Positions 1 to 30,520 of a stretch of 55,899 nt of DNA are shown in pieces. The position numbers and the translations under genes are program-made. Origin of the DNA: Nitrosotalea sp. (lineage in GTDB: Archaea; Thermoproteota; Nitrososphaeria; Nitrososphaerales; Nitrosopumilaceae); NCBI GenBank assembly GCA_025451075.1, contig JANWLA010000015.1:1-55899 (forward strand). Reading direction: 5' to 3'. The notes under the pieces were generated by a model, which saw only the letters and a program-made list of their open reading frames with translations, had not been told where the DNA came from and made no database searches. Position 1 is the stretch's first letter. Every line of letters starts with the position of its first letter.

Positions 1-2494
1 CTCCTTTATTTCTTCTTAGATTGTAGCTCTTCAGTACGATGGATATTATCTGTTTTAATTCATCGATTCTGATATTTTCTTTATCTCTAAATATCGTCAA
101 TATATCTGAAGCAGATTTTGTCTGAGCAATTGTTCCGAGATAACATAACTGTTGATGTAAATTATCTGGATCCAGATCCTGTGGCTTTAGTGTAATTTTG
201 TTTTCTTGAAGATATGTCAACCTGATTACTCCTTTTTCTTGGGATGCTATGTTGGCGTCGTATAGAGTATCAAGATTCACACCATAAGTTTGTGTGATTT
301 TAATTGCCTCATCTGCAGATATCATTCCATGATGCCATATCTTTAACAATAAATAAAATGACATCACAGGACCAATTTGGTTCATTTTATTATCAGTGAT
401 TTTATCTATGATCTGTTTTAGGATGAAATCTCGAGAGTCCTTTACTAGATCTTCAAAATCTGGAGCCTCACTCTTTTTTTGATATGATTTTAAAACAGTA
501 TGTTGGGTACATGTTTCCAGTACTTTACCATAAACCATTATCAACAAATCTGTAATTGGCAATAAGAGAAGTTTGTCATTTGGAATTTTATCTAGCATTT
601 TTTTGATTTCATCTTCTGCTTTTGGTATGATATCCTCAAGATATGCGGTTGATTCTTTGTTTATTTTTCTACAAGATATTACAATGGAAGACATGAATGA
701 AGTTTTTTGATGAGCTATGACATTAGATGTACTTTCTGTATGGATTGCATAGCTAGAAACTACTGAAAACTTGGCTTCTCTAATACATTTTAGTAAAAGA
801 TTCCATGTTTCAGGACTAGAATGAGCAAAGAATACTACTAAAAGTCCATCATCTTTTAATGATGAATTCATTGAAACGAATGATTTTTTCAATCCTTCTT
901 CAAAGAATCTATTGCTTAATTTTTTATCACCGAATCTTCCCCAGCTCTCACAAAAATCTTCATCTAGTGGAACGTTTTTTGGCAGTTCAGGAAAATATGG
1001 ATGAAGTAAGCGATATAGCCAGACATAGAAAAATTCTGAAAGTTCACCGTATTGGACATCATCTCCATATGGAGGATCTGTTAATATCAGATCATATTTA
1101 GTTGAAATTTCTGTTACTGATTTTAATCTAGTTTGTATCAAATTTTTATCAACTAGGGCAAAATGAATAGCATTACATATGTTATTTACAACATTATCTA
1201 ATCCACCCATTACTTTTTGAAATGGGTTAATCTCAGTATGATTGAAAACGAAGGAAGGTCTTCTCAATGTAAGTGCATGTTGTGGTGTATCTCTTGTGGT
1301 ATCCCACAGACATCCCAATGCATTTGCATTTACATGTTTAGAAATTAAAAATCCCATATAGACAGAAATCGCCTTTTGGTATTCTTTATCTAAAATATGT
1401 ACTGATACTAGTTTGAGATTCTTTAATAACGTACATAGGGCCAATAACTGTCTATTACTAAAGAATTCATCCCAGTGTTTAATTCCATAGTGCCACAACA
1501 TATTTTCTCTCCTATGTGAAGGTTTGATATCCTCGATTGGAATCAAATTCATTTTCTTATATTCGGATAATTTTGATTCCATGTATTTTGCAGCCTGAGC
1601 AAATCTCTTCTTATCTTCTGACTTGGCCAAAAAATATTCTTTAAATTTTACACCTTGTCTTTGAATTACAATTAATTCCCTATCTTTTCTTTTCGCAATA
1701 TCTCTCGTCATGAAATCATAATCTATTGTATTTGTACAAGAAATGCAAACAGCAGACCCGCCTTTTTGTGTAAATTTTTTACCTTCAGAAGAAGTCATAT
1801 TCTTAACTAATTCTACTTCAAAATCTTTTGATTTTGTTGGTTTGATTTTTATTCCAATTTTATGTTTTGCAGAATTTGCAATCCACATTTGATTTGTCAA
1901 CGGGACTCGTTGTCCACAATGAGGACATTTTATACACCATAACCACCGGTATGCAAGATCCTCTTCACCATAAAATTTACCAATCTCTTTTTTCGTTAGT
2001 TCAATAGCTTCCATAGCGTATTTTGTGAAATCGCTTTCAAGTTTTTGTCCGTATTTTGAAGGATATTCTAATACTGCTTTTTCAATCAAATATGCTAATG
2101 GATTGTAATCTGAAGACGTACAGTCAAGACCGAGTCTTTTTGCCTCAAAGATTAGATTTCCAGCCCCTCCAAAAGGGTCTAATACCTTAATTTTAGACGG
2201 ATCTGAGCCAAGTTTTTTTGCATATACACCGGCATCAGGGATTCTAGTGTAGGCACGAACATCTTTGCCAAAACCCATGAGTGATTCGACATCTTTGAGA
2301 TTTGTTAGCGTACTAGCTAACGCAATTGCACGCCCCACCACTAGTGGTTTTCTAGTCCAATAGTATACGAGTTTGTTAATGGGAGGAACTGCGTTTTTTT
2401 CTTTTCTTGCCTCTTCGCTTACCTTGTCAAAAAATTGCAAAAGTTCCACATTTGGTTCTTCGATGAGAGTTTTATGCACTCTTAAATTGCTCAT
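1..2494 (-). CDS. DUF1156/COG1743-type adenine-specific DNA methyltransferase with Zn-ribbon (C-terminus beyond window)
   Basis: Reading the minus strand by eye gives an open frame of 831 codons from the ATG at 2494 to the window edge, so the gene is 3'-truncated by the window. The N-terminus carries YWTRKPLVVGRA, which resembles the WWARRPLAxxRA signature of DUF1156 proteins. The SAM-binding motif DPFGGAG lies near residue 107. A Zn-ribbon (CIKCPHCG, later CISC) lies near residues 170-240. The catalytic motif DPPYGDDVQYGELSEFF lies near residue 470, so motif I precedes motif IV. It should methylate adenine (or cytosine N4) in DNA. The start overlaps the stop of the upstream helicase gene as ATGA, indicating translational coupling. 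COG1743 methylases are known from defence islands such as DISARM-like and DUF499-linked cassettes. No cognate restriction gene other than the helicase-nuclease is visible here. Confidence 0.85.
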   Translation of the reverse strand, partial: MSNLRVHKTLIEEPNVELLQFFDKVSEEARKEKNAVPPINKLVYYWTRKPLVVGRAIALASTLTNLKDVESLMGFGKDVRAYTRIPDAGVYAKKLGSDPSKIKVLDPFGGAGNLIFEAKRLGLDCTSSDYNPLAYLIEKAVLEYPSKYGQKLESDFTKYAMEAIELTKKEIGKFYGEEDLAYRWLWCIKCPHCGQRVPLTNQMWIANSAKHKIGIKIKPTKSKDFEVELVKNMTSSEGKKFTQKGGSAVCISCTNTIDYDFMTRDIAKRKDRELIVIQRQGVKFKEYFLAKSEDKKRFAQAAKYMESKLSEYKKMNLIPIEDIKPSHRRENMLWHYGIKHWDEFFSNRQLLALCTLLKNLKLVSVHILDKEYQKAISVYMGFLISKHVNANALGCLWDTTRDTPQHALTLRRPSFVFNHTEINPFQKVMGGLDNVVNNICNAIHFALVDKNLIQTRLKSVTEISTKYDLILTDPPYGDDVQYGELSEFFYVWLYRLLHPYFPELPKNVPLDEDFCESWGRFGDKKLSNRFFEEGLKKSFVSMNSSLKDDGLLVVFFAHSSPETWNLLLKCIREAKFSVVSSYAIHTESTSNVIAHQKTSFMSSIVISCRKINKESTAYLEDIIPKAEDEIKKMLDKIPNDKLLLLPITDLLIMVYGKVLETCTQHTVLKSYQKKSEAPDFEDLVKDSRDFILKQIIDKITDNKMNQIGPVMSFYLLLKIWHHGMISADEAIKITQTYGVNLDTLYDANIASQEKGVIRLTYLQENKITLKPQDLDPDNLHQQLCYLGTIAQTKSASDILTIFRDKENIRIDELKQIISIVLKSYNLRRNKG

Positions 2495-5400
2495 TCTTTT
2501 GCAATCTCCGAATAGTCGCATATTTCCCTAAAATTACACCTAAAGCAAGCCCCTTTTTCATGAATTGGTTCAAACTCTTCATTTAGAATTGATTTTGCGG
2601 CATCTTCAAGAGTTTTTTTATAGTTCATTACATTGTTCTCAATAATTTCATTATCAACAATCAAATCTTTTGCAATATAATATAGTGAAGATTTTACAGG
2701 AAGTTTTCCATATGATTCCTTGACTGCTAATGGATACAAGTTCATCTGAATATCTTCTGCAGCTTCTTTAGCATTTTTAGTGGAATTTCCTGTCTTGAAA
2801 TCATACACTTGATACTCTCCCTCAGGAGTCTTCATAACAAGATCAATCTTTCCTGTAACTTTGGCGCCACCAAGTGTCATGTTAAATTTTTTCTCTACAT
2901 CTTCTATCTTATTTGGGCTAGATGCAATCCATTCAAGGAACTTTACAATCATCACTTTGGCTTTTTCTTGGTCTTCTTTTGCCTCATGCTCGGTCTTGTA
3001 TGAATTATAGTCCCAGATTTTCTCTAGTATATCAAATGCTCTCTCCTTGTCTACTTTAATTCCTGATTTCATGTCCTTTGATGCCAACTCAAAGACCTTG
3101 TGAACCATGCCACCAAGAGACATTTGCTTTGAAGACTTGGTAGGTATCTGCAATACATATCCATACTTGAATTGCAAGGGACATTTGAAATAATTCTCCA
3201 TGTTTGTTGCAGATAGTTTCAACTCATCCTTGTTGACAAGAGGTATCTTTTCATCAACTAGAACTTTTTCTACATCTCCGTCTTGTTTGATATCTAGCAG
3301 TGTATCAATCTTAAATCCCTTCATAGAACCAGTATTTTTGTAATATTCGATTTTTGCAAGGTCTATCATTTTTTCAATGGCATTTTTAATCTGCATTGAA
3401 TTTACAAGACTTGCAATCTGGGCCTGGGCCTTCTCAATTAAAACATCTTCTCTATTTCGTATCTGTATACCTGCGGCTTTGCTTGTTCCATCAAAAGAAA
3501 CAACTTCCGCATTAGGATTGTTCTCAAAGTCAAGATCCTCTACTAAAAACTTGGATGGACTCCTATTTTTTCCAGTAGAATAAGTCCTAGGATATGTAAT
3601 AAACAGATGATTTTCTGCCCTAGTCATGGCAACATAGAATATTCTTCGCTCTTCTTCGATATGTCTTGTCTTTCCGTCTTTAGTATTTTTTAATCCCTTT
3701 GCAAGTTTGTCTGGGACGTAGAATAATTTTTTAGAATAATTTGTAGGTATACTACGGGCTGCAGCATCCACTACAAAGACAAATGGATATTCACTCCCCT
3801 TGCTCTGGTGAATGGTTGACACTCGAACTGTATCTGCAAGATCTGCTCCTTCTTCAAGTTCAACGTCGAACTTGCCAAGAGCTTTTACATATTCTATAAA
3901 CTGTGAAAGATCTCCATTCTTTTTCTGAGTCTCAAAGTCTTCTGCAAGTCCGTATATTTTCTTAAGTATTGTCTGCTTTCTCTTGTTTTCCATAGAATCA
4001 ATTCTGATTGCATCCTTGTAGAGGTTAGTTTCAAGCATAAATAGTTCATAGACTGCTTCCATCACTGGTTTGTTCTTCAATGCTACACAACGATTGAGTA
4101 GTTTCGAAACACCTTGAATTTTCTCAATCTGGTCAAGGCCTGAAACTTGTAGATCAGCTAGTACATCAAAGACAAAATCAGAGTTTGTATCTGATTTCCA
4201 TGTTCTATTATTTGCTTCATGATTGATTCTTGCAATATTTTGCTCTGATATTCCACTGTTTTGCAAAACCCTGTAGATTGCAGCACCTGCCTCTGTTGGA
4301 TTTGTTGCAATCTCAAGATATGCCATGGCGTCACGGCCAACACTTGTTGAAAAGAGATTTGCATCTCCTACAAATGTTGCAGGTATTCCATGTGAGTTTA
4401 ACCCTTGTGCATACTTTCTTCCACTGTTTCTAGTACGGGATAGTATGGTAAAATCCCCAAAAGTTAGGGGTCTATCTACCCCTTCTATCTTGGGAGGGGC
4501 TGTTAAAAATTCCTGAATCTTTTTTATGACAAATTCCACCTGGGCCACATCTGTCTTGCATGCAGCTACTGTAACACTTGGTCCATCTTTTTCTGAGTAT
4601 AATTCCTTTTCAATTCTATCTGGTTTTCCTTCTAACAATTTGCTTGAAAATGAAACTACTGGTTTTGGACTACGATAATTTCTGTTAAGATTGATAGTTG
4701 TTACATTTTTGTATGATTCTTGAAAGTCTGTAAATATTCTAGCATATGCTCCCTGGAACTTCATTATGCTCTGGTCGTCATCTCCTACAACTGTAATATT
4801 TCCAGTCGGAGCCAAGAGTTTGACTAGCTGCAATTGTGCATAGTTATTGTCCTGGAATTCATCAACTAGAACATACTTGAATTGGTTACGATATCTTTGC
4901 AATACGTTCTCTTTTCTCTGAAATAGTCTGATTGCCTGGACTATCATATCGTCATTGTCAAAGAGTTGCTCTGTTCGAAGATACTCTTCGTATTTGACAT
5001 ACAGCCTGTGCAAGTCTTCTAATTTGTGTAAATAATCAATTTCTTCAACATCTGAGACAAGATTTTTCTCTTTGGCAAGTTCAGAGTCAAGATATACTCC
5101 GAGTTCTTCAGGTTTTACCAATTCATCTTTGAATGTACTAATTCCATCCATCATTGCCTCAATTACTTCGACTGGGTCATTTCCCTTCTCTATGTTTTCA
5201 AATCCAAACGAATCAAAATTTTCCAAACCCCATACGAGGGAACTTGCTCTTTTTATCAAGCCTGAACTTATGCCAATTCCCGAATCCAAAACATTGTCTT
5301 GTAAAATTTCATGGCAAAATGAGTGGTATGTACTTATTTGCATCTCGGAAACATCTCTTACTTTTTCTAGTCTTTCTTTCATAATTGCGGCGCCTCTGTT

Positions 5401-5571
5401 GGTAAATGTAAGACACAAAATCTCTGATGGTTTGAATCCGTTATCTAACAGATGTTTTATTCTCTCTACAATTACCGTAGTCTTACCACTTCCAGGTCCT
5501 GCGGCAACTAGTAAAGGAGTTCCAGAATGCTCAACTGCCTGTTTTTGTTCTTTGTTTAATTGCATGCTCAA
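2491..5571 (-). CDS. UvrD/PcrA-family helicase fused to RecB-like Fe-S nuclease
   Basis: This is a 1026-residue superfamily 1A helicase. Walker A AAGPGSGKTT is at residues 23-32, the Walker B motif DEFQD near 236, GDDDQSI near 263 and the motif V/VI region (STIHQSKGSEYPFVFV) near 585. The C-terminal third is a PD-(D/E)XK nuclease: GKIDLVM near 908, then VYDFKTGN near 923. Its cysteines fit an AddB/RecB-type 4Fe-4S staple: FKCP near 796 and CFRCNFREIC near 1008-1017. It probably unwinds and degrades DNA ends, in repair or defence. The start is TTG: a clear GGAG lies 7 nt upstream, which favours TTG at 5571 over the ATG two codons later. It is coupled by ATGA to the downstream methyltransferase, suggesting joint action on modified versus unmodified DNA; that role is inference. 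Confidence 0.9.
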   Translation of the reverse strand: MSMQLNKEQKQAVEHSGTPLLVAAGPGSGKTTVIVERIKHLLDNGFKPSEILCLTFTNRGAAIMKERLEKVRDVSEMQISTYHSFCHEILQDNVLDSGIGISSGLIKRASSLVWGLENFDSFGFENIEKGNDPVEVIEAMMDGISTFKDELVKPEELGVYLDSELAKEKNLVSDVEEIDYLHKLEDLHRLYVKYEEYLRTEQLFDNDDMIVQAIRLFQRKENVLQRYRNQFKYVLVDEFQDNNYAQLQLVKLLAPTGNITVVGDDDQSIMKFQGAYARIFTDFQESYKNVTTINLNRNYRSPKPVVSFSSKLLEGKPDRIEKELYSEKDGPSVTVAACKTDVAQVEFVIKKIQEFLTAPPKIEGVDRPLTFGDFTILSRTRNSGRKYAQGLNSHGIPATFVGDANLFSTSVGRDAMAYLEIATNPTEAGAAIYRVLQNSGISEQNIARINHEANNRTWKSDTNSDFVFDVLADLQVSGLDQIEKIQGVSKLLNRCVALKNKPVMEAVYELFMLETNLYKDAIRIDSMENKRKQTILKKIYGLAEDFETQKKNGDLSQFIEYVKALGKFDVELEEGADLADTVRVSTIHQSKGSEYPFVFVVDAAARSIPTNYSKKLFYVPDKLAKGLKNTKDGKTRHIEEERRIFYVAMTRAENHLFITYPRTYSTGKNRSPSKFLVEDLDFENNPNAEVVSFDGTSKAAGIQIRNREDVLIEKAQAQIASLVNSMQIKNAIEKMIDLAKIEYYKNTGSMKGFKIDTLLDIKQDGDVEKVLVDEKIPLVNKDELKLSATNMENYFKCPLQFKYGYVLQIPTKSSKQMSLGGMVHKVFELASKDMKSGIKVDKERAFDILEKIWDYNSYKTEHEAKEDQEKAKVMIVKFLEWIASSPNKIEDVEKKFNMTLGGAKVTGKIDLVMKTPEGEYQVYDFKTGNSTKNAKEAAEDIQMNLYPLAVKESYGKLPVKSSLYYIAKDLIVDNEIIENNVMNYKKTLEDAAKSILNEEFEPIHEKGACFRCNFREICDYSEIAKE

Positions 5572-5623: not shown

Positions 5624-6043
5624 TCATTTTTCCATCTCCCTTGATTTGCTGACAAGAAATGGATATGCTTCATTTTCTTTTAGATCTACCTGTATTCTGT
5701 TTGACAAAAAGCGACCAATTTCTACAAATCTACTGTTATAGCTTACATCTTTTACAGGAATTGATAGGTTGGCTGAAACTTTAATGCCGTCATAATATTT
5801 TGGCATGGGGGCTACTGATACCCACTCCCAGTGAATTTTACCTTTCAAGAATTCTTTTGAAAATATGTCGCTTTTAGATGAGTCAATTCCACTATAGATC
5901 ATTACTACACCGCTTGTCCACTTGAATTGTTCGTGGAAGTGTGACATGCCTGCAGTATAGGTCTTGGCCATCTCAAGGGCTGATCTGAATACAGAGATCT
6001 CGTGAATTATTGTCTCGTTGAGAGGATTATGTTTTATGTTCAT
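5624..6043 (-). CDS. Hypothetical protein, 139 aa
   Basis: I do not recognise this family. The protein is soluble, without a signal peptide or membrane segment, and has mixed alpha/beta character with many aromatics (HWEWVSVAPMPKYYDG). It lies 52 nt upstream of the helicase-nuclease on the same strand, and the two are probably co-transcribed. Its ATG is close to a palindromic AT-rich segment shared with the divergent HNH gene. Its position at the head of the helicase/methyltransferase operon suggests an accessory or regulatory role, but nothing in the sequence names one. Confidence 0.6.
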   Translation of the reverse strand: MNIKHNPLNETIIHEISVFRSALEMAKTYTAGMSHFHEQFKWTSGVVMIYSGIDSSKSDIFSKEFLKGKIHWEWVSVAPMPKYYDGIKVSANLSIPVKDVSYNSRFVEIGRFLSNRIQVDLKENEAYPFLVSKSREMEK

Positions 6044-6087
6044 ACCTTGGTTAACCTTTGGTTATTATTATATAACCTCATAATAGT
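6044..6087. promoter_or_regulatory. Divergent promoter with GGTT/AACC inverted repeats
   Basis: Only 44 nt separate the divergent starts. Within it are the self-complementary GGTTAACC (6049-6056) and the inverted repeat GGTTAT-N6-ATAACC (6060-6077), whose spacer and right arm form a TATA-like TATTATATAA. One regulator could control both directions. The function is inferred. Confidence 0.45.
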
Positions 6088-7806
6088 ATGCATACTGAAT
6101 ATACTATTAATAAATTACTGCTAGCATCCAACTCGACTTTTTCCAGATCAGTAATGGAATTATTAATAAGTATAACAAGAATTGTTCTCTTTATGCACTC
6201 CTTGTTTTTAGCAAAACTAAATCCTTTACAGCGGGATGAACTTCTACAACGCCTTTGGGATTCACAAAAAGGAATGTGTTTTATTTGTGAACAAGAGATC
6301 AATCTAAAATTACACAAAGATACATTAGATATTGATCATGTTGAACCGCTTAAAAATGGTGGAAAAGATGATCAAACTAATTTTGCCCTTACTCATTTAA
6401 GTTGTAATAGATCCAAACAAGCTTCAGATCTTCGAGTTGCTAGAGTTCTAGCACAGTTTGATAAAATAAATAAAGAATGTTCCAAAATGAATAGAATTCC
6501 AAACCTTGATGATATTTTTAAAAAATATGGGGGAGCAAAATACGATCTCAAAATGATTGTCAATGAAGAAATGGCTGATTATTCTTTTCCTGAATTAAAA
6601 GATAACACAATACATCATTCTCATATTTACAAAGATGACCTAAGTGGTATGCAATATTTTTTTGCAAAATTACCTATTTCCTATTTATTTCATGATGATC
6701 GTATAAATCCTAGATCTATAGGAAGTAGAGTATCTGGTCTTGTGGGAGAATTTTTCAAGAAGCGTCCCCAACTTAGTATTGCATTAGGATGGATTTCTAC
6801 TACTGAACAAGATAATAATGTACGCGTCAAGGTATTTGATGGTCAGCACAAGGTTGCAGCGCAGGTATTGCTAGGCGTAAAAGAAATTCCAATTCGTATT
6901 TTTATAAATCCAGATCCTGAAGTCCTGATAACAACTAATACTAATGCTGGAACAAAGTATAGTCAAGTTGCATTTGATAAATCTGTACAACGTCATCTTG
7001 GAAGTTCAATTTATCGTGATAGGGTAAGACAATATCAAAGAGAACATGGTCTAGGAGAGGAAGACTATTCCTTTTCAGAAAAAGACTTGGTTAGACATTT
7101 CAAGGGAGACTCACGCGAAATGAAGAAAGACATCTTAGATTCTACTAGGGATGAGATAAGTCATAACACTGAAAATAAGCTTATGGCCTATGTGGATTTT
7201 GCTGGACGAGCAAAAGAAAAGCCAATATCTTATAGCACTATAGAAAAAACATTCTATTCATTTTTTATATATAAAGACCTCTTGGAAAGTCTGCTGTCAT
7301 ATACGGCGGAAGGGGGAGAAAACCCTAGAGATCTAGAAAAATCTCAAATAATAAAACTAATGAACATTATAGCCGACGAAATTTATGTTGGAAAATTCGA
7401 TTTTTCCATAGGTACAAACAGAATAGAATCTAATCTACAAAAAGGAGAGCAAATTCCAGAGGATCATTTGATAGCTTATAGACTAAGTCGTGAAGAAGTT
7501 CTGTATAATTGGCTCTATTACGTCCGTCAAATTGTAAAAAATTATTTTATTATGCTAGGTAATCCTATTAATGAAGAGAAATTATTCCAATATAGATTTC
7601 CAGAACCATTATGGGAAATAGTACGTATCTTCATCCATAATCTGAAACAATTACCGGTCTGGGTAAATCATGAATTATCTGCATCTGCATTTGGTGGAAA
7701 ACAAAATAATGCTTTTTGGCAAACAATTTTTGAAACAGGCAAGTCTCCTTCAGGTCAACAAGTGTTATCAAGTAAATTGAATTTGATGGATATGATTAAA
7801 GAATAA
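6088..7806 (+). CDS. HNH endonuclease fused to DGQHR-type (DndB-like) domain
   Basis: The N-terminal part is an HNH/McrA-like nuclease: C64-x2-C67, then DIDHVEPLKNGG at 81-92, N98, H103 and CNRSK at 106-110. The central part carries VKVFDGQHKVAAQVLLG, with DGQHK at about 251-255, a variant of the DGQHR motif that defines the DndB/DGQHR family. It is followed by a TNTNAGTKYS stretch resembling the Asn/Gln motif after DGQHR in that family. The C-terminal 250 residues are helical and unassigned. The first 35 residues are odd and hydrophobic; Met36 (6193), just before LNPLQRDELLQRLW, may be the true start. DndB proteins regulate DNA phosphorothioation loci, but no dndCDE genes are present here, so the role is open. 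A DNA-targeting defence effector is the likely class. Confidence 0.8.
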   Translation: MHTEYTINKLLLASNSTFSRSVMELLISITRIVLFMHSLFLAKLNPLQRDELLQRLWDSQKGMCFICEQEINLKLHKDTLDIDHVEPLKNGGKDDQTNFALTHLSCNRSKQASDLRVARVLAQFDKINKECSKMNRIPNLDDIFKKYGGAKYDLKMIVNEEMADYSFPELKDNTIHHSHIYKDDLSGMQYFFAKLPISYLFHDDRINPRSIGSRVSGLVGEFFKKRPQLSIALGWISTTEQDNNVRVKVFDGQHKVAAQVLLGVKEIPIRIFINPDPEVLITTNTNAGTKYSQVAFDKSVQRHLGSSIYRDRVRQYQREHGLGEEDYSFSEKDLVRHFKGDSREMKKDILDSTRDEISHNTENKLMAYVDFAGRAKEKPISYSTIEKTFYSFFIYKDLLESLLSYTAEGGENPRDLEKSQIIKLMNIIADEIYVGKFDFSIGTNRIESNLQKGEQIPEDHLIAYRLSREEVLYNWLYYVRQIVKNYFIMLGNPINEEKLFQYRFPEPLWEIVRIFIHNLKQLPVWVNHELSASAFGGKQNNAFWQTIFETGKSPSGQQVLSSKLNLMDMIKE

Positions 7807-8433: not shown

Positions 8434-8506
8434 TACACTGGTCAGGGGTTTTAAGATATAATTGCGTATTGATTGAATTTGAATTAAAACAATATCAAGT
8501 CTATTT

Positions 8507-9250
8507 TTAAATCAAAAATTCTGCAGCCTGAGACCCCGCTTCTGTAATCTTAATCCATCTGTTTCTTCCAACTTTTTCAACTTCTACAAACTTCCAGTGG
8601 TCAGCCAATGGCTGGATTATGTTTTTATCAAGGCTTGCAAACCTTGCCTGCTCAAAGTTCTCTTCTCTTGCACCTATTGTTATTATCTTGGCATCATCAG
8701 CTAGTTTTGCCATCTCTTTTTTTGTAATCTTACCGCCATGTTCTTGTATGATCTTCAATGCTGTAACAAGTTCTGGCTTTGGAATTTGGATCTCATATGC
8801 AGGCAGTTCTATGTTTCTCTTCCAGCCGATTGACTGCTGCTTACCTTCAAATGCTGCATATTTTTCGGCTTCTGCATAAAACGGTTTGACATTATTTTTT
8901 GTATTGAATATCATACATGTCATCATGCAGGCAATTGCCTGGATCTTGGAACCTGATGCAACGTTTACGTAAATGTCATTTGCTTTTTCTTTAAGAATTA
9001 TTTCTTTGACTGATTTTATTATCTTGAATAGATCAAGTCTGTCTGCCTTTGCAATCTCATACTTGATGTTGTTTTTTTTCAATTCTTTTTCGATCTTTTC
9101 TCTGTATGCTCCAGCCTTGTCTTCTGATACCGTATCATGTATCAAAAGCCATACCTTGTCTGCTCTTTCTTTGATTGCAGGAATCACGATTCTATCTATC
9201 TCGAATCCTACCGGAGCAATATGTACACGCATCTTTGATAAATTACTCAT
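8507..9250 (-). CDS. CARF-wHTH regulator (HFX_2341/DUF6293-like)
   Basis: The N-terminal ~140 residues form a Rossmann-like CARF domain: a first strand VHIAPVGFE, an acidic/basic helical segment, and the ligand-loop motif NVASGSKIQAIA (equivalent to the N-x-TGGTK motif of CARF proteins). The C-terminal ~90 residues form a winged helix (ALKIIQEHGGKITKKEMAK, then a wing around GRNRWIKITEAG). Such Csa3-like proteins sense cyclic oligoadenylate or related ligands and control transcription. No CRISPR array or cas gene is visible in the window, so it is an orphan here. A perfect inverted repeat adjoins its start codon, consistent with autoregulation. Met7 (MRVHIAPVG) is an alternative start. Confidence 0.8.
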   Translation of the reverse strand: MSNLSKMRVHIAPVGFEIDRIVIPAIKERADKVWLLIHDTVSEDKAGAYREKIEKELKKNNIKYEIAKADRLDLFKIIKSVKEIILKEKANDIYVNVASGSKIQAIACMMTCMIFNTKNNVKPFYAEAEKYAAFEGKQQSIGWKRNIELPAYEIQIPKPELVTALKIIQEHGGKITKKEMAKLADDAKIITIGAREENFEQARFASLDKNIIQPLADHWKFVEVEKVGRNRWIKITEAGSQAAEFLI

Positions 9251-9317
9251 TATAGTATCTACAGTCTACATACTATAGATATGATATATAATAATTCCGG
9301 TCATGTAGTAATATCAT
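9251..9317. promoter_or_regulatory. Divergent promoter/operator between CARF regulator and PIN operon
   Basis: A perfect 7-bp inverted repeat, TATAGTA (9251-9257) and TACTATA (9271-9277), encloses a spacer holding two TCTACA copies and touches the CARF start codon. A second pair, ATGATAT (9281-9287) and ATATCAT (9311-9317), overlaps the PIN start codon. The TATATAATAA at 9285-9294 is about 25 nt before the PIN ATG, fitting a leaderless archaeal promoter. Binding by the CARF-wHTH protein is inferred. Confidence 0.5.
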
Positions 9318-9735
9318 GATAACCACACAAAACATTGCGCTTGATTCATGCGTAGTAATTAGCATGATCGAAGACCCAAGGCTTGGTTTGAAGATAAAAC
9401 AAGGCCTTAAAGGAAAATCTGTAAAAATTGTACTATGCGACATTGTACTCTCTGAAGTTAATCGCGTAAGAGGATATGCTAAAGACTATGTCATTTCTAA
9501 AATCTCAAAAATTCTTGGAAGAAGTATATCTCTACAACAAACTAACAATCAAGAAAAAGAAGATGCACAAAAACTATCCGCACAATTTCTAGAATGCCAC
9601 AATGGTGACAATATCATACTTGCACTATGCAAGATATGGGATTACATTCTAGTAACATTTGATAGAGCACTACTTCGAACTTGTAACTTTATTGGAGTGA
9701 TTGCGTTTACTCCATTACAGACAGGAGGAATATGA
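9316..9735 (+). CDS. PIN-domain-like ribonuclease
   Basis: The acidic residues of a PIN nuclease are visible in order: D10 (ALDSC), E47 (LSEVNR), D98 (GDNIILALC) and D116 (VTFDR). The length (139 aa) fits a lone PIN domain, typical of VapC-like toxins and rRNA-processing nucleases. It is the first gene of a dense operon and is followed one base later by a 59-aa gene that could be an antitoxin partner, though PIN toxins usually follow their antitoxins. It lies opposite the CARF-wHTH regulator with a shared promoter. Confidence 0.7.
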   Translation: MITTQNIALDSCVVISMIEDPRLGLKIKQGLKGKSVKIVLCDIVLSEVNRVRGYAKDYVISKISKILGRSISLQQTNNQEKEDAQKLSAQFLECHNGDNIILALCKIWDYILVTFDRALLRTCNFIGVIAFTPLQTGGI

Positions 9736-9736
9736 A

Positions 9737-9916
9737 ATGAATATCCTTGACAAGGCATTTCGATTGCTACCAAAGTCTGTTCAAGTTCCATTGCTACTAG
9801 AGGATCTAAAACGAGTAGATGCATATCTTGAATATCATCGTGGAATGGCCAGACACTTTGATGAAAGAAGTAATGAACTCAGGTCCAGACTATCTGAACT
9901 GGGAGTAAGATTATGA
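9737..9916 (+). CDS. Small hypothetical protein, 59 aa
   Basis: The start is set at the ATG 9737, with GGAGGA at 9724-9729 as ribosome binding site, one base after the PIN stop. The product is a charged helical protein (LLLEDLKRVDAYLEYH, ending in SRLSELGVRL), possibly a short coiled coil. It could be a partner of the PIN protein. I recognise no family. Confidence 0.6.
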   Translation: MNILDKAFRLLPKSVQVPLLLEDLKRVDAYLEYHRGMARHFDERSNELRSRLSELGVRL

Positions 9917-10074
9917 TTGGAATCATAATTGCTCTTCTACTAGGATATTGGATTGGAAAAAGTGAAAAGAATGAACAAAAACAAATCGAACAGGAATACA
10001 CTGGCTCTGTACAATACAATAAAGTAGATTACGGTTATGTCCGAGAAGGAGAATCTGTGGAGGATCTGACATGA
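9913..10074 (+). CDS. Single-pass membrane miniprotein, 53 aa
   Basis: ATG at 9913 overlaps the previous stop as ATGA, and the stop in turn overlaps the next ATG (10071) as ATGA. The protein has an N-terminal transmembrane helix (IGIIIALLLGYWIG) followed by a charged tail rich in Lys, Glu and Gln. Double ATGA coupling is the main evidence that it is real. Function is unknown. Confidence 0.65.
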   Translation: MIGIIIALLLGYWIGKSEKNEQKQIEQEYTGSVQYNKVDYGYVREGESVEDLT

Positions 10075-10706
10075 ACAGATTCAGAATACTTGCAGCATTG
10101 TCAATCATGTTATCTTTTGGTGGAATTACATTGTTGAGTATAGACAAGACACTGGGAGTTGTGATCATGACAATTGGTCTTTTACCGACTGTAATCTTTT
10201 TAACAAAAGCAAAGAAAGAGGAATCTAATCATGGGTATGGCATATCAAAACAAGATAGGATGCCAAAAAGAGAAAAGAAGACTATACTACAATGGATAAT
10301 TCTAAAAATTAAAGAAAATCAAGGAATACAAGTAATGTCTGTTCCAGGTGCAAAACAACAAAAGAAATCCATACTTTTAACCGTGATTAAGTATCTGAAG
10401 GAAAAACCAGCTACACCTGAAGAGATTAATCAATTGAGATTAGAAGCAGAAAAATACCGACTAAAAGCCGATATTGCCAAATCCAAGGCTGTAATTTCAG
10501 GTTCAAAGGGGGGAAATTTTGGACTAGGAGGGTCATCTGCCATCGTGGAAGACAAGATCTCTGGGCTTCTCAGAGGCGCAGTTAAGACCAAAGATGTGGA
10601 TTTTTTCAACTCTATCTCAATACCTGACATCTTTGAAAACCAGAATGTTGACGACAAACCCAACAAGGAAAAAGAAGCATATCGAAAAAGGGCTCGGGGT
10701 TTTTAA
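10071..10706 (+). CDS. Membrane-anchored hypothetical protein, 211 aa
   Basis: Two hydrophobic segments at the N-terminus (about residues 6-24 and 28-47) are followed by a basic cytoplasmic region, an amphipathic helical stretch (PEEINQLRLEAEKYRLKAD) and a Gly-rich patch (SGSKGGNFGLGGSS). The C-terminus is highly charged. Coupled by ATGA to the single-pass miniprotein and followed two bases later by a Zn-ribbon gene. No family recognised; likely a membrane-associated component of this operon. Confidence 0.65.
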   Translation: MNRFRILAALSIMLSFGGITLLSIDKTLGVVIMTIGLLPTVIFLTKAKKEESNHGYGISKQDRMPKREKKTILQWIILKIKENQGIQVMSVPGAKQQKKSILLTVIKYLKEKPATPEEINQLRLEAEKYRLKADIAKSKAVISGSKGGNFGLGGSSAIVEDKISGLLRGAVKTKDVDFFNSISIPDIFENQNVDDKPNKEKEAYRKRARGF

Positions 10707-12523: not shown

Positions 12524-13273
12524 ATGAGTTTTACAGAATTTTTTAATCCATTAAACGGGGTGGCAAAAATAGAATTTTTGTATTATTTGGTATTAATTTT
12601 GTCTATAGTGTATACAATAATTCCAAATCATCTGGCAAAACAATATGTCGAATATGTCATAGTCTGTTCTCCTTACATTATGATACCTATATTTGTAATA
12701 CGGTTCAAAAATAATATTATCTATCTTATACGAAAACCCAAACATGAAACACTTGTATTTCCTCCTAAAGCCTATGAAATGATAGGGAATGAGAAAATTT
12801 CCCTTACTGATCCTCCTTTTATAATGGTGAATGATAAAAATGTCCTAGCCTTTGCAAACCAAAAAATAAGAAAAATTATGTTTGGTAGAGATTTTTATAA
12901 TTTGTTAACAGATGACGAAAGGATTTTTGTAATAGGACATGAATTATCACATTTTAAAAAAACAGAAGAAAAGGTTGTAGTAAAAAGCATATTCGTAATT
13001 ATTTGTGTAGTTTTTGCATTGTCATTTCTTCATCTGCAACCTTCGCTAGCATGGTCTCCTGTTGTTGCAATTTTTTGCATATCTCTTAATAACTCAGCAA
13101 GATATCTTGAACGGATGGCAGATATGTCTGGAGCATCATATGTATCAAAAGAAACTGCAATAAAAGCAATAAGACAATCATATCAAGATAGGCCAGAGAG
13201 AACAAGTCAAACACATCCTGCAATGAATTATAGGATTAAAAATTTAGAAAGATATTATTCACAATTTAATTGA
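12524..13273 (+). CDS. M48-family (HtpX/Ste24-like) membrane metallopeptidase
   Basis: The zinc motif HELSH is at residues 139-143. The third ligand is probably E196 in LERMADMSGA. The C-terminal THPAMNYRIKNLERY matches the conserved THPxxxxRI segment of M48 peptidases. Two N-terminal hydrophobic segments and two after the zinc motif anchor it in the membrane. It would degrade or process membrane proteins. It is the last gene of the dense operon, 5 nt after the possible 26-aa ORF, and may act on the membrane components encoded there. Confidence 0.85.
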   Translation: MSFTEFFNPLNGVAKIEFLYYLVLILSIVYTIIPNHLAKQYVEYVIVCSPYIMIPIFVIRFKNNIIYLIRKPKHETLVFPPKAYEMIGNEKISLTDPPFIMVNDKNVLAFANQKIRKIMFGRDFYNLLTDDERIFVIGHELSHFKKTEEKVVVKSIFVIICVVFALSFLHLQPSLAWSPVVAIFCISLNNSARYLERMADMSGASYVSKETAIKAIRQSYQDRPERTSQTHPAMNYRIKNLERYYSQFN

Positions 13274-13708: not shown

Positions 13709-15256
13709 ATGTTACTTGCTGAAGCAGAAAAGAAAATTGCAGGGATAGTGGATGAGAGTGAACGTAATGTGGCACATCTACTCTTGAATATAGGCTTCTC
13801 ATTCTTAGAATGTAATCAAAAAATTCTAAATTCTGATGAAAAGAATATTGGAGAAATTGATCTGCTTTTTACTTTTGAAAATTATTTATTTATCATTGAA
13901 GTCAGTAAAGATCGACATTCTGGTAGTTCAAAGAAAATTTCCTTCTTTTCTAAATGGGACAGAAAAGAAAATCTAAACTCTCTTAGGAAGCAATTCAATC
14001 TTAGCCCTCGCAAAGTACAAAGAATCTATTTTGATCTTGGCACTAAGAAAAAACCTGAAAATTCTTCAGTGGAATTGGATCTGATTACAAAAAAGACAAA
14101 AATGAATAAAATTGCATATCTTGATGATTATGAATATTTTGTAAATTGTACAAAAAAAATTGGATCTTGGGCAAAAAATGATTTTTTAGATTGGTTAGAC
14201 TTTGAGGATGAAAAAAAATCTAAGGTGATTGATGCAATTCAATACTATATTGGCGAAATCCCTGTCTTTTGTTTTGTAGAAAAAGTTGAGAGTTTACTTC
14301 ATACCTGTTATGTCTCAAGAAGAAGAACCAATGATGTGGGGTATCAGAGAACTTTAAAAGAAAATCGAGTAGTTGGTATATCTAAAAATATCAAGAAAGG
14401 CGATGGTTTATCCTTTCCTAACTCTATTTTGATAAATGCTCCTGATCTTTCAGATGAAATACTACCTCCTGAAGAATGTCCTAAAGCTGTGAAGATACAT
14501 TTTCCTTTAAGCTATAACACTTGTAGAATAATTGATGGACAGCATCGATTGCTTGGATTTTCTGTAGTTCCATCAGAAATTAGAAAAATGTATTCGCTAC
14601 CAGTAATAGCTTTGCAAGATTATGATAGGAAAAAAGAAATTAAAACATTTGTTGATGTCAATTCAAAACAGCAAAGAATTGATGGAAACTTGATCTTATT
14701 ACTTAAAGCAGATTTGGATTGGAAAGAAAATACTACTGAATTTAAAGAAAAAATTGCAGTTGGGGTAGCACGTGAGTTGAACGACTCATTTTTCAATAAT
14801 AGGATCTATTTCGGTATGAGTGAAGAGACAAAAGGTGATAAAATTACGTTAACAACTTTGGTTTCTGCATTGGTTCGTAATCATCAAGTCTATGATTCTG
14901 TTGTTAGTACTAATAGAAAGCTACGAGAAATATTTTCTTACATGCAACAATACCTTCCAAATTATTCTTTTAAACCAAATACTTATTTTGGGCAAAATCG
15001 TGGAGTTAGTGTCTTATTTCGTTTAATCCATCTTCTTCAGAGAAATTTTGAAGCTAATAAAATACAAATTCCAAAAGAACAATTTTTCAAGGATTTATCT
15101 ACAGTTTTAAACGATGATGCAATTCAACGTCTTGATGATTATTATGGTGAGGGTGGAGCAAATGCTTCAGCACATCTTCTGATCTCTGAATTAAAGACTA
15201 AATTTCCTACAAAGTATAGTAAAATGGAATCTAATCTTAATCAATTAAGGGACTGA
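13709..15256 (+). CDS. Nuclease-like domain fused to DGQHR domain (DndB-like)
   Basis: The N-terminal ~110 residues look like a PD-(D/E)XK fold: ERNVAHLLL helix, GEIDLLFTF, then LFIIEVSKD; the metal-ligand spacing is slightly atypical (E-V-S-K). The middle carries CRIIDGQHRLLGF, with DGQHR at about residues 275-279, the defining motif of DGQHR/DndB-family proteins. It is followed by the family-like FVDVNSKQQRIDGNLI segment near 313. The C-terminal 170 residues are helical. The stop overlaps the start of a HEPN gene by one base (TGATG), so both should be made together. The pair lacks dndCDE partners. I infer a nucleic-acid-targeting defence or toxin role. Confidence 0.8.
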   Translation: MLLAEAEKKIAGIVDESERNVAHLLLNIGFSFLECNQKILNSDEKNIGEIDLLFTFENYLFIIEVSKDRHSGSSKKISFFSKWDRKENLNSLRKQFNLSPRKVQRIYFDLGTKKKPENSSVELDLITKKTKMNKIAYLDDYEYFVNCTKKIGSWAKNDFLDWLDFEDEKKSKVIDAIQYYIGEIPVFCFVEKVESLLHTCYVSRRRTNDVGYQRTLKENRVVGISKNIKKGDGLSFPNSILINAPDLSDEILPPEECPKAVKIHFPLSYNTCRIIDGQHRLLGFSVVPSEIRKMYSLPVIALQDYDRKKEIKTFVDVNSKQQRIDGNLILLLKADLDWKENTTEFKEKIAVGVARELNDSFFNNRIYFGMSEETKGDKITLTTLVSALVRNHQVYDSVVSTNRKLREIFSYMQQYLPNYSFKPNTYFGQNRGVSVLFRLIHLLQRNFEANKIQIPKEQFFKDLSTVLNDDAIQRLDDYYGEGGANASAHLLISELKTKFPTKYSKMESNLNQLRD

Positions 15257-17978: not shown

Positions 17979-19133
17979 ATGGATGAACGCGCGTTTACAA
18001 AACCATCTGGCAAGTTAATAAAAAATAAAATTGGTCACAACACATTTCTGCCAGACTATCTGCCGCCTACCATAACATATGACCCAAGTCTGATTACTTT
18101 TGCAAATGAAGCAAGCAACCAACTTGGTCAATTGTCTGGCATAGGAACACTACTGCCAAATCCAGATCTTATAATCAGACCATATGTATATCGCGAAGCT
18201 GTTCTTAGCTCAAAAATAGAAGGTACACAAGCATCAATATTGGATCTTTTTAGATTTCAATCTGGTGCTAAAGAAAGTACTGATGAAAAAGGACAAAAAA
18301 GAATTGTTGAAGTTATAAACTATGTATCTGCAATGCATGAATGTCTAAAGAAAATTAACAGTAAAGAAAATGTCAATCTGAAAATGATAACAGATGCACA
18401 CAGAATGTTATTGGCAGGAGTTAGAGGCCAAGACCTGGAACCTGGAGTGATAAGAAGTATACAAAATTGGATTGGGCCTGAAGGAACAAAAATAGTTGAT
18501 GCCACATATGTTCCACCTCCACCAGAATACGTCGATGATTTGTTGTTAGATTTAGAAAAATTCATCAACGAACCTCCATCATACATGCCACCATTAATTC
18601 AATGTGCAATAATGCACTATCAATTTGAAGCAATACATCCATTTGGAGATGGAAATGGTAGAATAGGTCGTTTGCTAGTGCCACTGGTATTATCTGAAAG
18701 AAAATTACTTAGCCAACCGATATTGTATTTGAGTGCATACATTGAACAAAATAAAACACGATATTATCAGGCACTGCTAGAAGTTAGCCAAAAAAGTAAA
18801 TGGAATGAGTGGATTCACTTTTTCTTGATGGCTGTAATAACACAAGCCACAGATGCTGTAGCGAGAATAAAAAAACTAATGGAATTAAGAACGCAATATG
18901 AACGAAAACTACGAGAAAAGAAAGCATCGGCCAGTGTAATTTTGCTAAACGATTTGCTCTTTGCCAATCCTCTTGTAACTATACCAAAGGCTGCAGACTA
19001 TCTTCAAATAACATATCCGCCAGCAAAAAAAGCAATAGAATATCTTATGAGCATAGGAATTTTACGAGAGTTTGAAGGTAAAGAACGCAATAGAATATTC
19101 ATAGCCCATGAGATAGAGGCACTTTTAAGGTAA
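17979..19133 (+). CDS. fic: Fic-family protein AMPylator with N-terminal autoinhibitory motif and C-terminal wHTH
   Basis: The catalytic motif HPFGDGNGRIGR is intact at residues 220-231, with the transfer-competent His220. An inhibitory S-x3-E-G motif (S77 to G82, in SSKIEGT) precedes it, so this is a class II Fic whose Glu81 blocks ATP until released. The C-terminal ~80 residues (LLFANPLVTIPKAADYLQI and IEYLMSIGILREFEG) form a winged helix typical of Fic-DUF4172-like proteins that may bind their own promoter. It would transfer AMP from ATP to a protein hydroxyl. It is preceded by a strong palindrome. Confidence 0.9.
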   Translation: MDERAFTKPSGKLIKNKIGHNTFLPDYLPPTITYDPSLITFANEASNQLGQLSGIGTLLPNPDLIIRPYVYREAVLSSKIEGTQASILDLFRFQSGAKESTDEKGQKRIVEVINYVSAMHECLKKINSKENVNLKMITDAHRMLLAGVRGQDLEPGVIRSIQNWIGPEGTKIVDATYVPPPPEYVDDLLLDLEKFINEPPSYMPPLIQCAIMHYQFEAIHPFGDGNGRIGRLLVPLVLSERKLLSQPILYLSAYIEQNKTRYYQALLEVSQKSKWNEWIHFFLMAVITQATDAVARIKKLMELRTQYERKLREKKASASVILLNDLLFANPLVTIPKAADYLQITYPPAKKAIEYLMSIGILREFEGKERNRIFIAHEIEALLR

Positions 19134-26940: not shown

Positions 26941-26978
26941 TGTTGGTTAAATCCAACATATGTTGGAAAAAACCAACA
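26941..26978. promoter_or_regulatory. Twin operator over the start codon of the wHTH-MNT gene
   Basis: Two identical inverted repeats TGTTGG-N6-CCAACA occupy 26941-26958 and 26961-26978, separated by two bases, so their centres are 20 bp apart (about two helical turns). The second lies inside the coding sequence and the ATG (26960) sits between them. This is a typical geometry for cooperative autorepression by the wHTH protein that follows. Confidence 0.7.
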
Positions 26979-27568
26979 TTACGCAAACTACCTTGAGAAT
27001 AGTAGGCCTCTATAATGATAATTATACAAAATCACTTCATCTGAGAGAAATAGCAAGAAAAACAAAGACTGATGTAAATACTGCATATCCACAACTGAAC
27101 AAATTGGCAGAAATGAATATTTTATCCAGTACGATGAGGGGTAAAAACAAGGAATATGTTTTGAATCTAGATAATATTATAACGAAATATTACTTAACTA
27201 TGGCAGAAATTTTCACTGCTATTGTGTATCTACAAAAGAACTTTGTGATAAAGAAAGTAATGACAGAGATCGAATCTAAAATAGATGGTTCACTCATACT
27301 TTTTGGTAGCTTTGTAAAAGGAGGACATACCAAAGAAAGTGATATCGACATGTTTGTAATAGGACAGAAAAATATTGATAAAATGACTTTTAGATTAAAA
27401 GATCTTATTGGTCATGAAATAAACATTAAAGTCACCAATGAAAGTAAATTTGTAAATGGTCTAAAGAACAAAGATCCACTTATAAGCGAAGTTATATCCA
27501 ATCATATTATACTTAAGGGTGCAGACAAATTTTGTGACATGATGTGGAGACAATATGAGTTCCAATAA
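26960..27568 (+). CDS. wHTH-MNT nucleotidyltransferase, antitoxin-like
   Basis: The N-terminal ~70 residues are a winged helix (LHLREIARKTKTDVNTAYPQL). The middle holds the minimal nucleotidyltransferase motif G116-S117 ... D128-I-D130 (GSFVKGGHTKESDIDMF). MNT proteins of this type modify or neutralise a partner HEPN toxin, in known cases by AMPylating it. The HEPN gene follows with a 14-nt overlap, giving the classic pair. The winged helix and the twin operator over its start suggest that it represses its own transcription. Confidence 0.85.
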   Translation: MLEKTNITQTTLRIVGLYNDNYTKSLHLREIARKTKTDVNTAYPQLNKLAEMNILSSTMRGKNKEYVLNLDNIITKYYLTMAEIFTAIVYLQKNFVIKKVMTEIESKIDGSLILFGSFVKGGHTKESDIDMFVIGQKNIDKMTFRLKDLIGHEINIKVTNESKFVNGLKNKDPLISEVISNHIILKGADKFCDMMWRQYEFQ

Positions 27569-29545: not shown

Positions 29546-30520
29546 TTGTTCAATTTGAAGTTTTTCAGCTTGAAAAAGAAATTATTAGTATTAGTTTTGA
29601 CCGTATCTTTGATTTCTATAATGATGACTACAATTTTATTTTTAAATTTTAATAATATACCATTATTTCAATTAAAAGAAAATATTATTGGGATTGGCTT
29701 AGCATTAATGATTGCAATAAGTCTCATCACAATTTTTCTATCAAAGCGTCTTTCTGAGCCGTTAACAAGACTTCGTGAGGCCGCTGATAAAATAGCAAGG
29801 GGAAATTTTGATGTTAGAACAGACATAAAAGCACATGATGAGATTGGACAACTTTCCACATCCTTTGATTCTATGGCACAAAAGCTTCAAGAATCTATGA
29901 TTGCAATAAATCTACGAGAGGAAATCATAAAAGAACAAGAAGATATTCTTTTACGCTTTTCTCAGAAAAATGAAGACAGTTGCGTATGTATAGTTGACAT
30001 TGTACAATCTACCCTGATTACTGCTAGTTTGTCAAATGAACAAATCAAAAATTTTTATGGAGTTTTCATTAATTCTATAGCTGAGATTGTAAAAAAATTC
30101 AATGGCATAGTGGTAAAAAACATTGGAGATTCATTATTATTTTATTTTATGAAAATTGATTCTGATGATAAGGATTATTTCAAAAATGTAATGGAGTGTT
30201 GCTTGACAATAAGCGATTCAAATTCAGAATTAAATAAAAAAATGGCTAAAGTAGACCTTCCTAAAATCTCTTACCGCACTAGCATATCTTATGGAACAAT
30301 CAGTATTGCAAAGGTATCTACATCATTAGTTGATGATATTTTTGGCGTAACTGTAAACAGATGCTCTAAGATAAATCGATTCGCCTTACCTAACGGAGTA
30401 ATTATTGGAAGTGATTTTTATGAAAAGGTGAAAACCTTCGATGATTACCAGTTTAGAAACATGAATGCTACAGTTGGAGCCCAATCAATTTATTCAGTAT
30501 TTCTAGTTACTAGAAAATAA
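29546..30520 (+). CDS. Membrane HAMP-class III nucleotide cyclase-like protein
   Basis: Two membrane helices (about residues 10-30 and 46-66) are followed directly by a HAMP domain (KRLSEPLTRLREAADKIARG and HDEIGQLSTSFDSMAQKL). The C-terminal domain is a class III adenylate/guanylate cyclase homology domain: VCIVDIVQSTLI, VVKNIGDSLLFYF, RTSISYGTISIAKV and FGVTVNRCSKINRFA. The first metal Asp (VDIVQST) and the second (GDSLLF) are present. There is almost no extracytoplasmic sensor between the helices. The start is TTG at 29546. It may make cAMP or cGMP; a degenerate regulatory domain is the alternative. Confidence 0.8.
   Translation: MFNLKFFSLKKKLLVLVLTVSLISIMMTTILFLNFNNIPLFQLKENIIGIGLALMIAISLITIFLSKRLSEPLTRLREAADKIARGNFDVRTDIKAHDEIGQLSTSFDSMAQKLQESMIAINLREEIIKEQEDILLRFSQKNEDSCVCIVDIVQSTLITASLSNEQIKNFYGVFINSIAEIVKKFNGIVVKNIGDSLLFYFMKIDSDDKDYFKNVMECCLTISDSNSELNKKMAKVDLPKISYRTSISYGTISIAKVSTSLVDDIFGVTVNRCSKINRFALPNGVIIGSDFYEKVKTFDDYQFRNMNATVGAQSIYSVFLVTRK

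Follow-up and report, generated by a model that had tools for sequence, protein, structure and literature searches.

A CARF-winged-helix regulator, its candidate operator box and a divergent PIN-led operon in Nitrosotalea: sequence evidence for a probable CARF regulon independent of CRISPR

The window analysed here, that is, the whole stretch of DNA under study, is a 55.9-kb contig (55,899 nt, JANWLA010000015.1) of a Nitrosotalea sp. genome of 1.66 Mb and 84.9% completeness (GCA_025451075.1). The first-pass annotation had described an orphan regulator with CARF and winged-helix (wHTH) domains divergent from a PIN-led run of genes, and this arrangement was confirmed by the Pfam domains, PF01850 among them, and by the close packing of the open reading frames (ORFs). 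The features considered are as follows.

2491..5571, minus strand: UvrD helicase-PDDEXK nuclease, 1026 aa (UvrD 8e-64, PDDEXK_1 1.9e-35)
5624..6043, minus strand: 139-aa gene behind box 2, no Pfam or PADLOC match
6084..6105, minus strand: candidate operator box 2 (AGTATATTCAGTATGCATACTA), with TATA and ATG spacing (40 nt) as at the PIN promoter
8507..9250, minus strand: CARF-wHTH regulator of the DUF6293/HFX_2341 family, 247 aa (Pfam, AF2, Foldseek)
9254..9275, plus strand: candidate operator box 1 (AGTATCTACAGTCTACATACTA), pointing to PIN; 0.00 expected in shuffles, conserved at CARF starts family-wide
9281..9294, strand left undefined: TATA-like element, possibly shared by both divergent genes (words 11-12 nt past the box; 9-locus alignment)
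9316..9735, plus strand: putative RNase with a PIN domain, 139 aa, its ATG 40 nt beyond box 1 (PF01850 2.1e-6; VapC-like fold)
9737..9916, plus strand: 59-aa ORF directly after PIN, frame broken in relative L073, no Pfam match
9913..10074, plus strand: 53-aa ORF with hydrophobic N-terminus, overlapping the preceding ORF
10071..10706, plus strand: 211-aa ORF, probably in the PIN-led run, overlapping the preceding ORF, no Pfam family at E 0.1

The protein encoded at 8507-9250 belongs to the HFX_2341/DUF6293 family, both of its domains scoring above the Pfam cut-offs: PF19810 (HFX_2341_N) with 1.9e-37 and 128.8 bits (cut-off 30), and PF22665 (DUF6293_C winged helix) with 1.2e-23 and 83.9 bits (cut-off 27). 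It is a family relative of HFX_2341 and not the haloarchaeal equivalog itself, for which the NCBIfam model NF051475 gave 26.6 bits against a cut-off of 500. The Csa3 model TIGR01884 was likewise missed (31.1 bits, cut-off 60.2); the Pfam model Csa3_N was passed with 30.5 bits (cut-off 27), more weakly than HFX_2341_N. Solved structures searched by sequence yielded no match. The AlphaFold (AF2) model, with pLDDT of 89.7, had Csa3-cA4 (6wxq, 5e-9) as its top Foldseek match and aligned in VIA-align with Csm6 over 138 residues (Z up to 16.7, rmsd 2.5). The two ligand loops of the CARF pocket are conserved, with R8, A12, P13, G15, E17, R20, N96, G100 and K102 invariant in 28 of 28 relatives, and the Rossmann-like fold and the loops together place the protein in the CARF superfamily.

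Orphan CARF regulators are common across archaea. The nearest named relative of the one studied here is that of Candidatus Nitrosotalea, with a CARF protein 95% identical, and a second CARF gene of the same genome, on contig C27, is 59% identical to the first. The plasmid search returned 22 records, all below 60% identity, the matches listed being haloarchaeal. Viral origin was considered and dropped, since neither CARF nor PIN nor the exact consensus box turned up in the viral contigs. It should be added that a contig of a Porticoccus metagenome-assembled genome (L231) bears a CARF gene 63% identical to that of the window, which is probably a binning error. A literature search on CARF proteins in thaumarchaea, with subscription journals mostly outside its scope, gave no match on a circuit of CARF, box and PIN.

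As the first-pass annotation had stated, no cas gene lies nearby: a scan of the window ORFs, part of the small ones included, recognised none, and the Cas3 and Cas9 matches reported by PADLOC in the window were attributed to domain-level similarity of a DEAD-box helicase and an HNH protein. The check for a type III cyclase that it had proposed pointed in the same direction, with Cas10 above cut-off in 0 of 200 family genomes, our own included, and the two weak Cas10 matches being GTP cyclohydrolase III. SMODS matches were found in 98 of the 200 genomes, 21 of them above cut-off; the one in our own genome is a CCA-adding enzyme, and since the ORFs of the others are similar in length, these are taken to be that enzyme too. 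Diadenylate cyclase was detected in one genome of 200, not the one studied here. These counts make it very improbable that the ligand is delivered by a type III CRISPR system or CD-NTase missed by the models or for incompleteness of the genome, even with a search made by listed families. A possible source of cyclic nucleotide, unlinked to CARF, is the HAMP-bearing class III adenylate/guanylate cyclase at 29546-30520 (+), 20 kb from CARF (PF00211 4e-8; PADLOC PycC 5e-12). Separately, 26960-27568 (+) encodes a small nucleotidyltransferase (NTP_transf_2) whose N-terminal region may bind DNA.

The start codons of CARF and PIN are 65 nt apart, in agreement with the earlier reading. The latter had also placed palindromes at both start codons. 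On the CARF side the palindrome stood, its arms (9251-9261 and 9267-9277) being 91% complementary and its sequence being that of the conserved box AGTATNNANAGTATGCATACTA; the short inverted repeat at the PIN start was dropped, as even the 95%-identical relative L073 does not share it, and the claim therefore holds for the CARF side only. Allowing up to two mismatches, AGTATNNANAGTATGCATACTA occurs twice in the window and in none of 100 shuffles, and box 2 is located about 3 kb from box 1. An HNH protein at 6088-7806 (plus strand), in which a DGQHR-like stretch was recognised by eye, has its listed ATG inside box 2, so that its true start is probably further in.

Across 100 CARF loci, the window's own among them, the 16-nt core of the palindrome was found upstream of CARF in 52 at up to two mismatches and in 79 at up to three, against 36 and 61, respectively, of 2000 random 260-nt stretches from the same loci, some of which overlap true sites. 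In the genome studied here, a near-identical box pattern marks three sites, namely both CARF promoters and 6084-6105 (reversed control, 0). The box was present in 72 of 200 family genomes, in 121 rows that were merged to 111 distinct sites, a palindrome being matched on either strand (reversed control, 8); these counts are not independent events, since many of the sites are homologous by descent from one promoter.

The position of the box relative to the genes behind it is largely uniform. An ATG follows 39-42 nt after the box at 92 of the 111 sites, and exactly 40 nt after it at 64, against a background of about 1.8 per offset; TATA-like words are concentrated 11-12 nt past the box at most sites. 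The genes so preceded are diverse, the 25 that encode at least 60 aa falling in 12 unrelated families (at least 12 overall). On the CARF side the same box sits between a probable TATA element and the CARF start codon, and the element at 9281-9294 may possibly serve as promoter of both divergent genes.

Such placement ahead of the targets suggests an activator-like role, and a single orientation with a single spacing upstream of TATA argues for activation, just as coverage of CARF's own start argues for autorepression. A comparable position is described for Csa3a, whose palindrome is reported to be 12 bp upstream of BRE/TATA (PMC8699464). In the opposite scheme, CARF would repress both genes from the box and a ligand would release it, PIN being induced on stress as in toxin-antitoxin loci. 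It would agree with the lowering of most affected genes in the presence of HFX_2341 (PMC11434293), with the box touching the CARF start and with the fact that a toxin-like PIN is natural to keep off; we nevertheless regard it as somewhat unlikely, for repression needs neither one orientation nor a fixed 40 nt before unrelated genes, and on the target side the box lies outside TATA, like activator sites.

PIN, with its VapC-like fold, conserves the catalytic acids expected of a VapBC PIN, D10, E47, D98 and D116 being invariant in 11 of 11 relatives. It heads a tightly packed run of ORFs of 59, 53 and 211 aa, the last two of which each overlap their predecessor. A role of the 59-aa ORF as a VapB-type antitoxin was unsupported, given the absence of a Pfam match and the broken frame in L073. 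Further downstream of the run lie an M48 peptidase (12524-13273, plus strand), a DGQHR-domain protein (13709-15256, plus strand; TIGR03187 6.5e-23) and a Fic-domain protein (17979-19133, plus strand); elsewhere in the window, 38389-41922 (minus strand) encodes a family B DNA polymerase that contains an intein and a homing-endonuclease domain.

PIN relatives of any kind occur in 35 of the 200 genomes. All 11 with at least 38% identity are linked to CARF, the remaining relatives being all at or below 35%. Ten of these close PINs are divergent beside CARF, and the eleventh (G119), found some 2 kb downstream of CARF, has a box of its own at the same spacing despite not adjoining CARF; a partial PIN at a contig end (G198) is also found behind the box. 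The stretch 8506-10062, which comprises CARF and PIN, is shared with G028 at 85% amid otherwise different surroundings, and therefore behaves as a module. This sharing, together with the VapC-like fold, is what one would expect if CARF and PIN were an ordinary toxin-antitoxin-like or selfish travelling pair with the ligand pocket as a leftover; the invariance of the pocket residues in 28 relatives, the many non-toxin genes preceded by the box and the lack of PIN at most CARF loci make that explanation improbable.

The divergent partner of CARF is an unannotated microprotein at 62 of the 100 loci, PIN at 10 and another gene at 28. The microproteins, 16-59 aa as delimited by the search motif, carry a core such as FPRIIREFDD or YPRVRSVFEN; in 41 of the 62 the start is separated from the projected CARF start by exactly 65 nt, and 44 distinct sequences were counted with a narrower motif. 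Three of them, searched against Pfam, had no match, and the literature search on a divergent Nitrosopumilus microprotein, with subscription journals mostly outside its scope, found no paper; the protein is short enough for annotation to skip. The second CARF copy of our own genome (C27) has a microprotein in the divergent slot, and in G085 the slot holds an apparent decayed PIN. In a CARF tree of 97 proteins (three of the 100, shorter than 200 aa, were omitted) the PIN label needs seven changes, at least six of them forced by well-supported branches; PIN and microprotein were therefore swapped in the slot while the promoter stayed.

The first-pass annotation held that its proposal would fail if orthologues lay beside unrelated genes without the palindromes. 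In the neighbourhoods compared (no CARF ORF was selected in L060, L061 and L106), orthologues are often found beside other genes and the palindrome stays. Its main claim, that CARF controls the PIN-led operon, is upheld in part: the close PINs are consistently CARF-linked and keep the box spacing even apart from CARF, but the usual partner is the microprotein (62 vs 10), and PIN appears as one of several targets of a predicted regulon that includes DNA-end-processing nucleases.

Within the window, the latter are represented by the UvrD-PDDEXK gene, which is probably co-transcribed with the 139-aa gene at 5624-6043 behind box 2. In G085, the genes behind a 50-nt stretch homologous to the box 2 promoter (96%) encode an exonuclease-like protein and a UvrD-PDDEXK protein. 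A related helicase is encoded behind CARF, and on its strand, in L079, L081, L083 and L085, of which two belong to named Nitrosotenuis. Fourteen box sites are located ahead of an accessory nurA, in most cases with a leader ORF of 27-34 aa in between; it was seen that this leader is conserved (NSQIITLGKYH-like) in L088, L137, L138, L145, L157, L158 and L161. In the neighbourhoods examined more closely, L088 and L095 for instance, nurA is the first gene of a cassette that also encodes HerA, a metallophosphatase resembling Mre11 and a Rad50-like protein, NurA and HerA having been called by Pfam and Rad50 by reading. The idea of accessory NurA as a core repair gene was rejected: of 30 genomes with CARF 16 have it, and of 30 without CARF four, a sample that is biased and no fair contrast, because those four were included for carrying a box.

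More distant CARF relatives, with 30-37% identity (L070, L071, L108, L109), are without this box and have different upstream repeats. In the first three the CARF-wHTH gene faces a multi-ubiquitin/E2/JAB-E1 operon with TIR-cluster genes nearby, one copy of each having been checked by Pfam; L109 has the E2-type gene. Judging by the UvrD-PDDEXK gene, the nurA cassette and the neighbours at these distant loci, defence or DNA-processing genes are a recurring theme, in which several targets (secreted and small proteins) have no evident place.

Four genomes (G143, G192, G105, G051) had no PF19810 match and yet keep the box before nurA; among 12 CARF-bearing genomes with NurA of at least 73% identity, six have the box at up to two mismatches, and one more has it at a split gene; and several genomes in which CARF adjoins the nurA cassette (L235-L238) have a degenerate box or none. 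With boxes in CARF-less genomes and a patchy distribution in CARF-bearing ones, another protein may read the box there, or it may be a relic. One could go further and assume that the box is generally read by another, more widespread transcription factor, CARF and PIN being merely two of its targets, as the nurA boxes of CARF-less genomes would allow. However, of the 97 CARF-bearing genomes 27 have boxes elsewhere than at CARF promoters, against 11 of the 103 others (Fisher p 0.002), so that such boxes are enriched in the former without being exclusive to them; two of the three boxes of our own genome are at CARF genes; the distant CARF relatives that lack the box have other repeats instead; and only CARF fragments were found in G061, G068 and G109, which suggests recent loss of CARF. 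A different reader is consequently judged unlikely.

The protein family, the box, its spacing, the linkage of PIN and the lack of a recognisable Cas10 are read directly from the sequences, and by this evidence we consider the conserved CRISPR-independent CARF regulon to be real. We infer its working parts, i.e. the binding of the box by the window CARF, the direction of regulation, the ligand and the trigger, as follows. A CARF dimer would read AGTATNNANAGTATGCATACTA. At its own gene, where the box separates the likely TATA element from the start codon, binding would limit CARF synthesis; at the targets, where the box has a single orientation and is followed by TATA after 11-12 nt and by the start codon after 40 nt, CARF would recruit the basal machinery and turn the target on. 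The state of this switch would depend on a small molecule bound in the conserved CARF pocket. Targets predicted in the genome studied here are the PIN-led operon (9316 onwards), the operon of the 139-aa gene and UvrD-PDDEXK (6043 to 2491) and the C27 microprotein. The output, an RNA-cutting PIN and DNA-end-processing helicase-nucleases, would resemble a defence or DNA-damage response. On the whole, a non-CRISPR CARF-wHTH factor that reads the box, autoregulates and drives PIN RNase together with DNA-end-processing nucleases appears to us the probable explanation.

A broader scenario may be put forward only tentatively, as one possibility for Nitrosopumilaceae: a second-messenger alarm without CRISPR, in which an enzyme would answer viral or DNA damage with a nucleotide signal, and DUF6293 CARF activators, on reading it, would switch on a regulon of fixed box-TATA-ATG geometry comprising PIN RNase, several alternative DNA-end-processing machines (UvrD-PDDEXK and the accessory NurA-HerA-Mre11-Rad50 cassette) and the conserved microprotein as default output. 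The 22-bp box, the fixed geometry and the short target list make CARF binding, ligand and direction directly testable, and the box gives access to the responses of ammonia-oxidising archaea to stress or viruses. Binding regions were named as the missing datum in the 2024 study of HFX_2341 (PMC11434293).

HFX_2341 (Crr) of Haloferax mediterranei is a global regulator, mainly a repressor, of transport and cas genes, and was proposed to be a nucleotide sensor in a genome without type III cyclase (PMC11434293). The window CARF shares with it the Pfam family (HFX_2341_N and the DUF6293 winged helix) and a genome in which no type III cyclase was recognised; unlike HFX_2341, for which no binding site is known, it comes with a defined candidate box, faces either PIN or a microprotein and has few predicted targets in its own genome. 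With Csa3a and Csa3b it has in common the CARF-wHTH architecture and fold and, with Csa3a, a palindrome upstream of TATA (reported as 12 bp for Csa3a). In Sulfolobus, csa3b overexpression is reported to have raised nurA, rad50, mre11 and herA (PMC7480081). Csa3 is tied to CRISPR loci and to cA4, whereas the window CARF is without recognised cas genes and has another box and other targets. PIN resembles VapC toxins in its fold and four conserved acidic residues, and differs from them in being without a recognised VapB-like partner and in its putative control by CARF via the shared promoter. Csm6 and Csx1 are CARF-effector RNases. Like them, the system proposed here would couple a CARF sensor to an RNase output, although the coupling would be by transcription from a shared promoter, with neither fusion nor Cas10. 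Some CARF families are associated with PIN domains, according to Makarova 2014 (PMC4012209).
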